DNA of 64,000 nt from Pseudarthrobacter sp. MM222 (GTDB lineage Bacteria; Actinomycetota; Actinomycetes; Actinomycetales; Micrococcaceae), in contig NZ_OX352321.1 of NCBI RefSeq assembly GCF_947090775.1, forward strand, positions 3,100,001 to 3,164,000, written 5' to 3'. The notes under the pieces were generated by a model, which saw only the letters and a program-made list of their open reading frames with translations, was not told the origin of the DNA and searched no databases. The translations under genes were made by a program, and so were the position numbers. Positions 49,698 to 54,197 of the stretch are shown here, piece after piece (positions within the stretch are counted from its first letter, which is position 1; every line of letters starts with the position of its first letter).

Positions 49698-49851
49698 GTC
49701 CCTGGCCTCTCCACGTTGGGTCCGGCGACCGGCCGGATGTTGCTCCCGGCCTGAGCGCCGGCTGCTGACTTCTGAGCCTATTATCTCCCAGCGGGTTCCC
49801 GCGAACCTAGCCGGGCGTCACAGAGGCCCGGGCGGGTGCGTGAACTGGTCC

Positions 49852-49857
49852 TAGTAT
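49852..49857 (+). promoter_or_regulatory. -10-like hexamer (TAGTAT) for the leaderless truncated SH3-GNAT gene
   Basis: TAGTAT ends six bases before the GTG at 49864, with no ribosome binding site. The promoter seems intact although the gene is truncated. Confidence 0.45.
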
Positions 49858-49863
49858 GAAGTA

Positions 49864-50106
49864 GTGAGTTCGCCCATGCCCCCGCCGCAGCAATTCCTTT
49901 CCGGTGCCCCGCTTGGCACCCGCGTCGTTGTCAGGTACCGGATCGAGGGCGGCCTGACCGACGCGCTGGGCGAGCTGGTGGGACTCGGCGAGGGTGTGTG
50001 CACCGTCCGCACCCGGCGCCTGGACGTGGACATTCCGCTGGCCCTCGTGGTGGCCGCGAAGGAAGTCCCGCCCGCACCGCCACGCCGCGGCCCAAGGCAG
50101 CCCTGA
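49864..50106 (+). CDS. Truncated SH3-like N-terminal domain of an SH3-GNAT acetyltransferase
   Basis: An 80-residue protein starting from a GTG. GTRVVVRYRIEGGLTDALGE and VVAAKEVPPAPPRRGP strongly resemble, from memory, the SH3-like N-terminal domain of actinobacterial SH3-GNAT acetyltransferases, whose gene often lies next to fdxA and dapC. In those, the GNAT domain continues right after the Pro/Arg-rich linker. Here a stop codon ends the protein inside that linker, and no GNAT-like sequence is found in any frame in the next 75 bases. The tandem repeat array begins just downstream. I infer that the original gene lost its 3' part. Confidence 0.6.
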   Translation: MSSPMPPPQQFLSGAPLGTRVVVRYRIEGGLTDALGELVGLGEGVCTVRTRRLDVDIPLALVVAAKEVPPAPPRRGPRQP

Positions 50107-50181
50107 TTCTCCAGGCCCCGTTCTGGCGCGGCTTCGCGCGGCCTGACGTGCCCTGGCCTGTGGAGGTGTGACCTGACCAGT

Positions 50182-50395
50182 GGACATGCCCTCCCCTGGG
50201 CTGACCAGTCCTGGCCCGACCAGTGGACATGCCCTCCCCCGGCGTGACCCCCCTGGCGCGACCAGTGGGCAGGCCCTCCCCTGGCGTGCACCACCCTGGC
50301 GCGACCAGCGGACATGCCCTCCCCCGGCGTGCACCACCCTGGCGCGACCAGCGGACATGCCCTCCCCCGGCGTGCACCAATGGACATATTGGCAC
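50182..50395. repeat. Left tandem array, five units of 42-43 bp
   Basis: Units start at 50182, 50225, 50267, 50310 and 50353. Each begins GGACATGCCCTCCCC (third unit GGGCAGGCCCTCCCC) and ends GCGCGACCAGYG or similar, with GGCGTGCACCACCCTG between. Units differ by a few bases. There are no unique spacers, so this is not a CRISPR array. Confidence 0.9.
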
Positions 50396-50408
50396 TATGT
50401 CCACTGGT
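50376..50408. repeat. Dyad ACCAATGGACATA-N7-TATGTCCACTGGT
   Basis: Arms of 13 bp with one mismatch around TTGGCAC. The inner arms TGGACATA/TATGTCCA are perfect. Related, less perfect elements occur in the right flank at 51533-51555 and 51708-51730 in the opposite orientation. Confidence 0.85.
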
Positions 50409-50420
50409 GGGTGGGACCAC

Positions 50421-50463
50421 GGGACATGCTCATTGGTGAAGGGCGGCAGCGCGGGACATGTCC
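50421..50463. repeat. Left copies of the GGACATG motif
   Basis: GGGACATGCTCA (50421-50432) is the reverse complement of TGAGCATGTCCC, the motif repeated in the right flank. GGACATGTCC at 50454-50463 is a perfect ten-base palindrome. Confidence 0.85.
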
Positions 50464-50558
50464 ATTCTTTGTCGTGAACATCGGGCATGCCGCCAGTGTC
50501 CAAATCGTGCATACTGCGGAAGTGTCCAGCCCAGGAAAGTTGGAGAGCGCGTTTAGCC

Positions 50559-51368
50559 CTAGGCTGCGGAGGGAAGCTTGTTCAGCGCGGCGCGGACCAT
50601 TTCGATGAACTCATCGGGCCGGTTGCGGAGCAAGGGATAGCTTACGACCAGGGTCGGGATGCCGCGCCGGGTTGTCATGTTCCACCGCCTCCGGTCTTCT
50701 TCGAAGCTCGCCCTGTCCATATGGAATCCGGCCCCGTCAGTTTCGATGCCGAGCCTGCCGTCCACCATCAAATCCAGATGGCCCAAGCCGGGAACGTTGA
50801 CCTGTGACTCAACGTGGAACCCGGCCTTGCGGAGCAGGTACCTTGCCATACATTCGATGACGGATTGGGACTGCGGGACGATGCCGGCGACGATCTGCCG
50901 TTCCCGCGCATCGTTGCGGCCCGATAACCGTTGCCGCAGCGCCGACATCGGCACGCCCTTCAAGACGACGGCGGATTCCGCAATGACGAGGCCGTCGAGT
51001 TCCGGCAGGCAGCGCAGGCTTTGGACCACAGTGTCCAGCAGCGTGGGCGGCACGGCGGACCGGTGGCAGACGAAGCCGGGGTAGTTGCGGCTGTGGGTCA
51101 GCGCGACATGCGGGTGTTGCGGCGGTTCCAGCACCCACAGACCTTGATGCTGCGCCTTTGTGACGCATGCCGGCTCGGCGGGCAACGAGCGGATGGAGAT
51201 GAGCTGCTCGTCGGCGCCGGGGACGGCGTAAACGCCCCGGGCTACCCGGGAAACGGCTCCGCTGGCCAAGGCAGCCTTGAGCTGGAAGTCGGAGACTCCG
51301 GCAGCAGCGAGGTGTTTGGCGCGTGCAACGCCGTCGTAGTTAGAAAGCACTTCGATGATCTTGACCAT
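50559..51368 (-). CDS. AbiEi-like helix-turn-helix plus DUF559/Vsr-like nuclease domain protein
   Basis: A 269-residue protein starting at the ATG at 51368. Residues 1-50 look like the AbiEi antitoxin-type winged helix (VLSNYDGVARAKHLAAAGVS, then LASGAVSRVARGVYAVPGA). The middle (about 60-170) resembles the AbiEi C-terminal part. The C-terminal 90 residues look like a DUF559, PD-(D/E)XK/Vsr-type nuclease: SVIECMARYLLRKAGFHVES, GHLDLMVDGRLGIETDG and FEEDRRRWNMTTRRGIPTLV. Candidate catalytic residues are the Asp of GHLDLMVDG and the Glu/Asp of IETDG. No partner toxin gene lies next to it. An upstream extension in the same frame runs through repeat sequence and is unlikely. No ribosome binding site is visible. 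Repeat arrays flank it on both sides. Confidence 0.8.
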   Translation of the reverse strand: MVKIIEVLSNYDGVARAKHLAAAGVSDFQLKAALASGAVSRVARGVYAVPGADEQLISIRSLPAEPACVTKAQHQGLWVLEPPQHPHVALTHSRNYPGFVCHRSAVPPTLLDTVVQSLRCLPELDGLVIAESAVVLKGVPMSALRQRLSGRNDARERQIVAGIVPQSQSVIECMARYLLRKAGFHVESQVNVPGLGHLDLMVDGRLGIETDGAGFHMDRASFEEDRRRWNMTTRRGIPTLVVSYPLLRNRPDEFIEMVRAALNKLPSAA

Positions 51369-51370
51369 GT

Positions 51371-51378
51371 GGACATGT
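51371..51378. repeat. GGACATGT motif three bases upstream of the nuclease start codon
   Basis: GGACATGT matches eight of ten bases of the palindrome GGACATGTCC in the left flank. It lies between the start codon (51366-51368) and the right array, where a regulator of this gene could bind. Confidence 0.5.
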
Positions 51379-51440
51379 TGGTGCCGCGGACGCCGCTTGG
51401 CAAAGTGGCCTATTCGGCTATGTGCACAAGCGCATGCCCC

Positions 51441-51615
51441 ACCGAACGGCACAAAAATGAGCATGTCCCTTGGTCAGAAGCCGGCACGTCCGGTTGTTGG
51501 CACAGAGCAGGTCCCGTGGCCGGCGTGGGCAATGGACATAGTGGCATTTTGTCGACCCGTGGCCGCGAAAAATGAGCATGTCCCACCGAGACGCCGCGAA
51601 GAATGAGCAAGTCCC
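51441..51615. repeat. Right direct repeat, copy 1 (175 bp)
   Basis: Begins ACCGAACGGCACAAAAATGA and is repeated 175 bases later with many small differences. It holds TGAGCATGTCCC at 51458-51469, a degenerate TGGACATA dyad at 51533-51555, and 31-bp units at 51563 and 51594. Confidence 0.85.
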
Positions 51616-51790
51616 ACCGAATGGCACAAAAATGAGCATGTGTCATGGTCAGGAGCGGGCACGTCCGGTCGTCAGCACAGAGCATGTCCCGTGGCCGGCG
51701 CGGGCACTGGACATAGTGGCATTATGCCCACGCCTGGCCGCGAAAAATGGGCATGTCCCACCGAGACGCCGCGAAAAATGAGCATATCCC
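51616..51790. repeat. Right direct repeat, copy 2 (175 bp)
   Basis: Begins ACCGAATGGCACAAAAATGA. It holds the dyad TGGACATA-GTGGCAT-TATGCCCA at 51708-51730 and the first two of three 31-bp units. Confidence 0.85.
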
Positions 51791-51830
51791 ACCGAGACGC
51801 CGCGAAAAATGAGCATGTCCCGCGGGGACC
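51738..51830. repeat. Right 31-bp tandem units (CCGCGAAAAATGAGCATGTC...)
   Basis: Three units start at 51738, 51769 and 51800; two more (51563 and 51594) lie inside copy 1. The unit contains TGAGCATGTCCC followed by ACCGAGACG. The last unit ends in CGCGGGG instead. Confidence 0.9.
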
Positions 51831-51856
51831 GCAGCACCGACGCGAGGCGCGAGACG

Positions 51857-52168
51857 CTACGCCGGGTCGGGGCGGCGGTACCTCCGGCACCAGGCAAGCA
51901 TGCCGAGAGTGACCGCCGCGGTGCCGAATATCCAGAGGTTGCCCGGGGTGTCCGCGATGACCAGTCGCTTGCCGTTTTCCACGGTGGACCACCAGCCGGT
52001 GAGGGCGTAGCAAAGGACGCCGCAGACGGCCGTCGGGACGACGGAACGGAAAGCGGCCCCGAGCCACAGCTGGGCCGAACCGAGCAGCACAAGCGCGGCA
52101 ACGGCACCCCAGGGGACGTCTACGCCGGCAAGCACCAGACCCTGCCGGTGCAGGGCGGTGCCTGCCAC
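51857..52168 (-). CDS. Small membrane protein, unknown
   Basis: A 103-residue protein starting from a GTG with about three hydrophobic segments: residues 18-40, about 42-60 and about 75-95. It ends in the basic CRRYRRPDP. I recognise no family. It is downstream of typA on the same strand, beyond a hairpin, and marks the right edge of the repeat region. Confidence 0.65.
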   Translation of the reverse strand: MAGTALHRQGLVLAGVDVPWGAVAALVLLGSAQLWLGAAFRSVVPTAVCGVLCYALTGWWSTVENGKRLVIADTPGNLWIFGTAAVTLGMLAWCRRYRRPDPA

Positions 52169-52176
52169 GGCAACAA

Positions 52177-52226
52177 AGAGCTGCCGGCACGGCGGCGGTC
52201 AGACCGCCTGCCGTACCGGCAGCTCT
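52177..52226 (-). terminator. Hairpin downstream of typA
   Basis: AGAGCTGCCGG-C-ACGGC-GGCGGTC pairs with GACCGCC-TGCCGT-A-CCGGCAGCTCT over about 23 pairs with one mismatch and one bulge. It lies 40 bases after the typA stop and likely ends its transcript. Confidence 0.75.
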
Positions 52227-52268
52227 CGTATTCACGTGTTATCCGTTGCCGGGGCTAGGAAGCCGCGA

Positions 52269-54197
<1,929 letters not shown>

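Follow-up and report, generated by a model that had tools for sequence, protein, structure and literature searches.

A gene for a putative nuclease with arrays of palindromic repeats on both sides was analyzed in a 64,000-nucleotide stretch of the genome of Pseudarthrobacter sp. MM222 (NZ_OX352321.1, positions 3,100,001 to 3,164,000), here termed the window. We propose that gene and repeats are the two halves of one system resembling the REPtrons, in which a REP-associated tyrosine transposase (RAYT) accompanies repetitive extragenic palindromic (REP) sequences, and we put the probability of this reading at roughly 0.57. In soil bacteria of the Arthrobacter group the two probably make up a single, so far undescribed system for the spread of repeats. 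Three levels of evidence support their association: the surroundings of the gene, the genome as a whole, and lineages whose palindromes have changed. A search of the open-licence PubMed Central (PMC) literature gave nothing on this association, in line with an earlier annotation made from the sequence alone (the first-pass annotation), which knew of no described system with this layout. Genomes (G), loci (L) and genera (g) are referred to by working numbers.

Repeat arrays beside the gene and elsewhere in the genome

The gene and its flanks comprise the following features:

50559..51368, minus strand: nuclease gene with an AbiEi winged helix-turn-helix (wHTH) and a domain like the very-short-patch-repair (Vsr)/EDxHD nucleases, 269 amino acids, placed by open reading frame (ORF) and homologue lengths
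51219..51368, minus strand: N-terminal winged helix, residues 1-50, AbiEi_4
50562..50870, minus strand: C-terminal nuclease domain, residues 167-269
50107..50558, no strand: left repeat array, 14 motif matches
50347..50437, no strand: 91-bp stretch in the left flank that we delimited as a single unit of the dispersed element
50381..50403, no strand: inner palindrome, left flank, TGGACATA-N7-TATGTCCA
51369..51856, no strand: right repeat array, 11 motif matches
51432-51606 and 51607-51781, no strand: tandem duplication of 175 bp, right array
51533..51555, no strand: degenerate copy of the inner palindrome, right flank
51674..51764, no strand: 91-bp stretch in the right flank that we delimited as a single unit of the dispersed element
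51708..51730, no strand: copy of the inner palindrome, right flank

The motif counted was GGRCATG/GGRCATA with complements. It occurred at 31.0 per kb in the left flank and 22.5 per kb in the right flank, was absent from the gene, and fell to 0.39 per kb in the rest of the window, where the other 62 kb held 24 matches compared to 20 for the reversed motif. The reversed motif was not found in either flank. In 1000 dinucleotide shuffles the two flanks gave on average 0.56 and 0.48 matches, with maxima of 5 and 4, against 14 and 11 observed. The left flank contains direct repeats, five copies approximately 43 bp apart, and the two halves of the duplication in the right flank are 88% identical and are accompanied by copies spaced 31 bp. 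Inverted repeats of at least 12 nt within 120 bp were not found in the left flank, a limit above the 8-bp arms of the inner palindrome.

The stop codon of the gene lies at its low end, 50559, the ORF of an SH3-domain protein ends at 50106, and the next ORF on the other side begins at 51857. The longest possible ORF would start at 51464. Since 269 amino acids was the commonest homologue length (at least 65 of the 120 homologues listed), we placed the start at 51368, and the flanks are therefore 452 and 488 bp. The coordinates and flank lengths of the first-pass annotation were correct, as was its description of flanks packed with repeats.

That annotation had also taken the locus for a self-contained module, which proved wrong: the same repeats form arrays elsewhere in the genome, and a unique module was rejected. 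GAGCATGTCCC had 41 matches in the 4.29-Mb genome compared to 4 for the reversed pattern, and TGGACATAGTGGCATT-like palindromes were likewise dispersed. Among 21 cluster loci drawn from the fetched GAGCATGTCCC- and TGGACATAGTGGCATT-type matches (up to 30 loci per pattern), 5 lay between convergent genes, 4 between tandem genes and 1 between divergent genes, 5 could not be assigned, and the other 6 were placed within an ORF, 5 of them as single-motif matches. Some arrays adjoin core genes, for example rpsA, or occupy the interval between recR and an aspartate-kinase-like gene, named ask here. With arrays lacking promoter bias in this small sample, a promoter-type regulon was not favored.

An alignment was made of 24 units picked by eye from 43 candidates, which had been pre-picked by the inner-palindrome pattern. 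The inner palindrome paired in 20-24 of the 24 units at eight successive positions, as follows from the way they were selected. The outer pair GGGACATG/CATGTCCC, which played no part in the selection, paired in 19-24 of the 24 units at eight positions, and the spacers paired poorly. In DNA searches of other genomes carrying the gene, the recurrent array match was about 80 bp. Judged from these alignments, the repeat element is roughly 80-91 bp long, with the inner palindrome enclosed by two related half-sites in inverted orientation.

No known RNA family was found at E 0.1 within 49800-52300. The right-hand array, the one searched, had no match in either phage or plasmid collections, and an origin from phage or plasmid was rejected for it.

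Co-occurrence of gene and repeats among genomes of the genus

We compared 39 genomes of the same genus, of which 11 had an orthologue match above 400 bits (carriers) and 28 did not, and counted the palindrome GGRCATRN{6,8}YATGYCC. The carriers had 30, 5, 35, 25, 27, 27, 26, 26, 3, 18, and 9 copies, and the non-carriers 0-6, with 0-3 for the reversed control. More than 8 copies were found in 9 of the 11 carriers and in none of the 28 non-carriers (Mann-Whitney p 2e-6). Genomes without the orthologue have only background levels of these repeats. Co-occurrence of arrays and gene, proposed as a check in the first-pass annotation, was thereby borne out. Arrays common across the genome with no link to the gene had been named there as an observation that would count against it: the arrays are indeed common genome-wide, but they track the gene.

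The same was seen at a syntenic position. A DNA query spanning recR, the array and ask was run on 30 of the 39 genomes, with up to 12 candidates scored per genome. It matched ask in all 30 and recR in 29 (not G018), and extra matches to the array part were obtained in 10 of 11 carriers and in 1 of 19 non-carriers, there as one 43-bp piece. The recR-ask interval was scored at 16 of the 30 loci, the others being L189, which lacked recR, and 13 for which the retrieved sequence did not include the ask anchor. It held 6-19 motifs in five of seven scored carriers (G000, G013, G123, G223, and G244) and 0-2 motifs in all nine scored non-carriers. Mapped onto a recR tree of 29 genomes, carriage of the orthologue needed five changes, at least two of them forced by well-supported branches, and none (0%) of the bootstrap trees needed one change only. 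A single inheritance within one clade is therefore insufficient.

Flanks of orthologues and of other family members

Two sets of orthologues were analyzed (n = 10 and n = 32, L152 being dropped from the larger). They overlap in part, some species being represented in both, and their counts are not additive. In the larger set, from Arthrobacter and Pseudarthrobacter, 31 of 32 orthologues had GGACAT motifs in the 600 bp to either side, with L160 lacking them on one side, and further out there were 0-1.2 motifs per 1200 bp. In the smaller set all ten had 3-17 motifs per flank, compared to 0-1 for the reversed control. Close species differ in the number of units in one flank, with one in L138 and two in L142, L144, L147, and L148, and L136 has a tandem expansion not found in L133 or L137. 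These flanks show gain or loss of whole units, whatever the mechanism.

A motif-free test was based on the longest string common to the left and right 400-bp flanks of a gene, with a threshold of at least 13 nt. Such a string was found for 35 of 62 other family members and 25 of 37 orthologues, compared to 6 of 180 sham gene placements and 24 of 293 mismatched pairs (same-lineage pairs included). After clustering at 90% nucleotide identity it was found for 30 of 53 other members and 12 of 21 orthologues, the controls being unclustered. From the 52 loci L132, L139, L143, L152, L161, L163, and L181 were dropped, and the test was also run without L063, L064, L088, L090, L091, and L212-L229. The association between gene and repeats is common in the family and not universal.

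The palindromes themselves differ between members. The core is GGGTATGTCTAGACATACCC in G229, TCAGTGGGATTGTCTAGACAGTCCCACTGA in G208, and GGATGGGAATGTTCGAACATTCCCATCC in G167, and further differing nested palindromes were found at L104, L113, L117, L169, L079, L081, L083, L087, and L089, where the last two members come from two further families of the same order. Palindromes tend to be specific to a lineage of the gene. Of 245 family genomes, 7 contained GGGWWTGTYYRRACAKWCCC when one mismatch was allowed; five of these belong to genus g45 (G136, G167, G182, G208, and G229), and the remaining two, G098 and G059, had a single match each. Its copies in G208 and G136 lay both beside the gene and at distant places. 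In G181 a gene copy in two pieces (2399381-2400158) had GGACATAAGTACTTATGTCC-type palindromes on either side, with two more copies far away.

Some further members were observed in passing. At L089 (G026, of another family in the same order) a long palindrome stands beside a distant member, and 27 nt are common to its flanks. A second family member of G000, 34% identical (L002, G000:C1:4074830-4078630), has another shared flank string of 15 nt, unrelated to GGACATG. The family copies L244 and L245 of G181 were each matched in two pieces and resemble decaying copies; L244 is flanked by nested palindromes on either side, and L245, judged by eye, by different ones.

The pattern GTGGGAN{8,16}TCCCAC was tried as a second test across the 245 genomes and set aside for its noisy background. 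Its top three genomes, all g45 carriers, were G094 with 20 matches, G248 with 19, and G195 with 17, against reversed controls of 4, 9, and 4. G151 (10) and G134 (8) also hold family members, G131 (11) and G279 (9) have matches although no member was found there at E<=1e-44, and the 10 matches in G208 were not above its reversed control of 9. In genus g46 the reversed control hairpin pattern occurred 14-16 times in each of G069, G095, G154, and G277, and these genomes may hold another dispersed hairpin family.

Within the genus, relatives of the 48-52% class come from genomes with background palindrome counts of 2-3. By reading of the sequence, L073 and L162 of this class share the locus of the window gene. 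Four of the six loci L069-L074 (L070, L071, L073, and L074) share another string of 13-14 nt between their flanks, which in one of the four is plainly GC-rich, so loci of this class may or may not carry small repeats of their own. L071 (G007) and L074 (G006) have the same 13-nt string TGCGCAGGGACAG common to both flanks, a possible separate repeat. In G006, G015, and G020 the gene match was split in two pieces, which may indicate decay.

The protein, its proposed action and the alternatives

AbiEi_4 scored above the Pfam cut-off in the query. The MTES_1575-type restriction endonuclease (REase) model was below it (27.5 compared to 38.2 bits), and its precomputed Pfam match is present in most of the 120 homologues listed. 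NCBIfam gave no name for the protein at E 1e-3. Fold matches were obtained to the AbiEi antitoxin, to I-Bth0305I and to Vsr, and more weakly to TnsA of Tn7. The nuclease domain has the Vsr/I-Bth0305I-like (EDxHD) fold. Among 43 sequences E209, H216, D225, and R228 were invariant and E172 and D199 nearly so, and the domain has what is expected of a Vsr/EDxHD nuclease: the catalytic fold with conserved acidic residues and a histidine, which are the candidate catalytic residues. The fusion of an AbiEi-like domain to a DUF559/Vsr-like nuclease, read from the sequence by the first-pass annotation, was confirmed, with the REase model below cut-off in the query itself.

The protein and the repeats are likely to be functionally linked, because the two co-occur across genomes and because gene-specific palindromes flank many other members. 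The simplest account would be that the protein recognizes the palindromes flanking its gene, and by analogy with the REPtrons the most likely next step after recognition would be that it moves them. The repeats would be the cognate sites of the protein, arrayed on both sides of its gene and dispersed mostly between genes. The protein would bind the nested palindrome as a dimer and nick or cut double-stranded DNA there, and repair or joining of the break would add copies of the element both locally, so that the array grows, and at new intergenic sites. That the protein may bind or cut the repeats was an early suggestion; the association behind it held and was wider than first guessed, and binding, cutting and copying themselves we infer.

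Several observations weigh against gene and repeats being two halves of one system. The carriers G143 and G005 have just 3 and 5 palindrome copies, and in the carriers G143 and G023 the recR-ask interval holds 1 and 0 motifs, respectively. The recR tree is based on one gene and omits G018, and another carrier-specific gene could covary with the repeats. The first-pass annotation had counted homologues lacking such flanks against itself; orthologues do have them, but the 48-52% class loci L069-L074 have only 0-1 GGACAT motifs per 600-bp flank. In the motif-free test 27 of the 62 other family members fail. GGGWWTGTYYRRACAKWCCC is nearly confined to the gene flanks in G167 and G229. G182 has 5 palindrome matches and only a 31% homologue at E<=1e-20, and G066 (g43, 82% complete) has 12 hairpins, such as GGACATATTGGTGTTATGTCC, and no homologue at E<=1e-20. 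Finally, single-stranded folding of window units compared to shuffles gave z of -0.9, -1.95, +0.2, and -1.4. These values did not support a strong single-strand hairpin in the window lineage, its units being at best slightly more stable than the shuffled sequences; elsewhere z was -4.0 (G208) and -5.1 (G181), with -0.1 for a coding control.

The repeats may instead be binding sites only, spread by ordinary means, with the protein a repressor or chromosome organizer whose nuclease is unused on them. We consider this unlikely. The window units do resemble double-stranded half-site arrays more than hairpins, and AbiEi, as described in passages of PMC3985639, binds a pair of palindromic sites in its own promoter, which it represses. 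However, the 21 cluster loci, a small sample, show no promoter bias, the repeats are present 3' of the gene too, and conservation of the candidate catalytic residues would be needless in an unused domain.

A homing-like repair drive, in which the nuclease cuts at or beside the palindromes and recombination copies the arrays and the gene region without true transposition, is quite improbable to us. It shares the cutting step with the proposed system, but new intergenic locations require more than gene conversion, and, judged from the sequence, the neighbors on one or both sides stay the same across the ten orthologue loci whose flanks were inspected, which is not the pattern of a gene homing to many places.

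Still more doubtful is that the repeats are like miniature inverted-repeat transposable elements or REPs and are mobilized by some unrelated transposase, with the nuclease gene as a passenger or located at an insertion hot spot. Against it stand the co-occurrence with the nuclease gene across the 39 genomes and the different palindromes that flank other members on both sides. Dispersed palindromes with no gene nearby are, on the other hand, the usual state of such elements, and G182 and G066 have repeats with no close homologue found. A Y1 transposase (Y1_Tnp, PF01797), the single transposase family searched, was found in 0 of 19 genomes at E<=0.001, with 5 of 14 control genomes positive. REPs mobilized by a RAYT were rejected on this result and because GTAG/CTAC occurred in 3 of 24 units at no fixed position, a test covering GTAG-type and not CTCG-type REPs.

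A defense role, with the nuclease as a restriction enzyme against foreign DNA and the repeats as a mark or protection of self DNA, we give hardly any weight: Vsr-type domains are found in conflict systems (passages of PMC3710099) and there were weak matches to the AbiEi models of PADLOC, but by Pfam neither adjoining ORF is a toxin or methylase, and an island-like setting was not seen, though no test for one was made. Pfam assigned SH3_Rv0428c to the ORF on one side and gave DUF3017 far below cut-off on the other; in these two ORFs, the only ones checked, it gave no AbiEii toxin and no methylase. A small ORF lies beyond the other flank of the nuclease gene. We take the ORF beside SH3_Rv0428c to be of ferredoxin type, and one on the other side presumably encodes a TypA-like GTPase.

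Returning to the two-part system, its closest known likeness is to the REPtrons (RAYT/TnpA_REP with REP/BIME/REPIN), where a nuclease gene is likewise flanked by palindromes dispersed between genes, with lineage-specific palindromes and local arrays. In contrast, the enzyme here is AbiEi-wHTH plus Vsr/EDxHD, whereas RAYT is an HUH Y1 tyrosine enzyme; there is no fixed GTAG tag, the patterns used gave tens of copies, and the window units gave little sign of a strong single-strand hairpin. According to passages of PMC8266576, REPs were concentrated near tnpA_REP in one genome. The CGTC-tagged REPs, which passages of PMC3733652 describe as apparently lacking a dedicated transposase, are similar in being dispersed palindromes without an adjacent RAYT and differ in sequence and in that an associated nuclease is visible here; the word Arthrobacter is absent from the main text of that paper. 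The AbiE type IV system shares the AbiEi winged-helix domain but has no attached nuclease domain, and no AbiEii toxin gene was seen in the two neighbors checked here. I-Bth0305I and Vsr endonuclease differ in their DNA-binding part, and here repeat arrays flank the gene. I-Bth0305I is intron-encoded, as its PDB name indicates.

REP-type repeats are widespread in bacteria. In the literature consulted, RAYT is their known dedicated enzyme. Tentatively, and with slightly more doubt than confidence, we suggest that AbiEi-Vsr/EDxHD nucleases are a second, independently evolved repeat-spreading class, which would act on double-stranded nested palindromes, each lineage with its own, and would have seeded several Micrococcaceae genera with cognate intergenic repeats. 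Such a class would be non-homologous to RAYT/REP both in enzyme and in DNA. If true, nucleases of an unrelated family are behind a comparable system, and repeat-enzyme partnerships arose at least twice. It would also provide many natural enzyme-palindrome pairs for the study of how DNA specificity changes, and a role for many orphan genes now annotated as AbiEi/solitary antitoxin or as very-short-patch-repair (Vsr-like) endonuclease.
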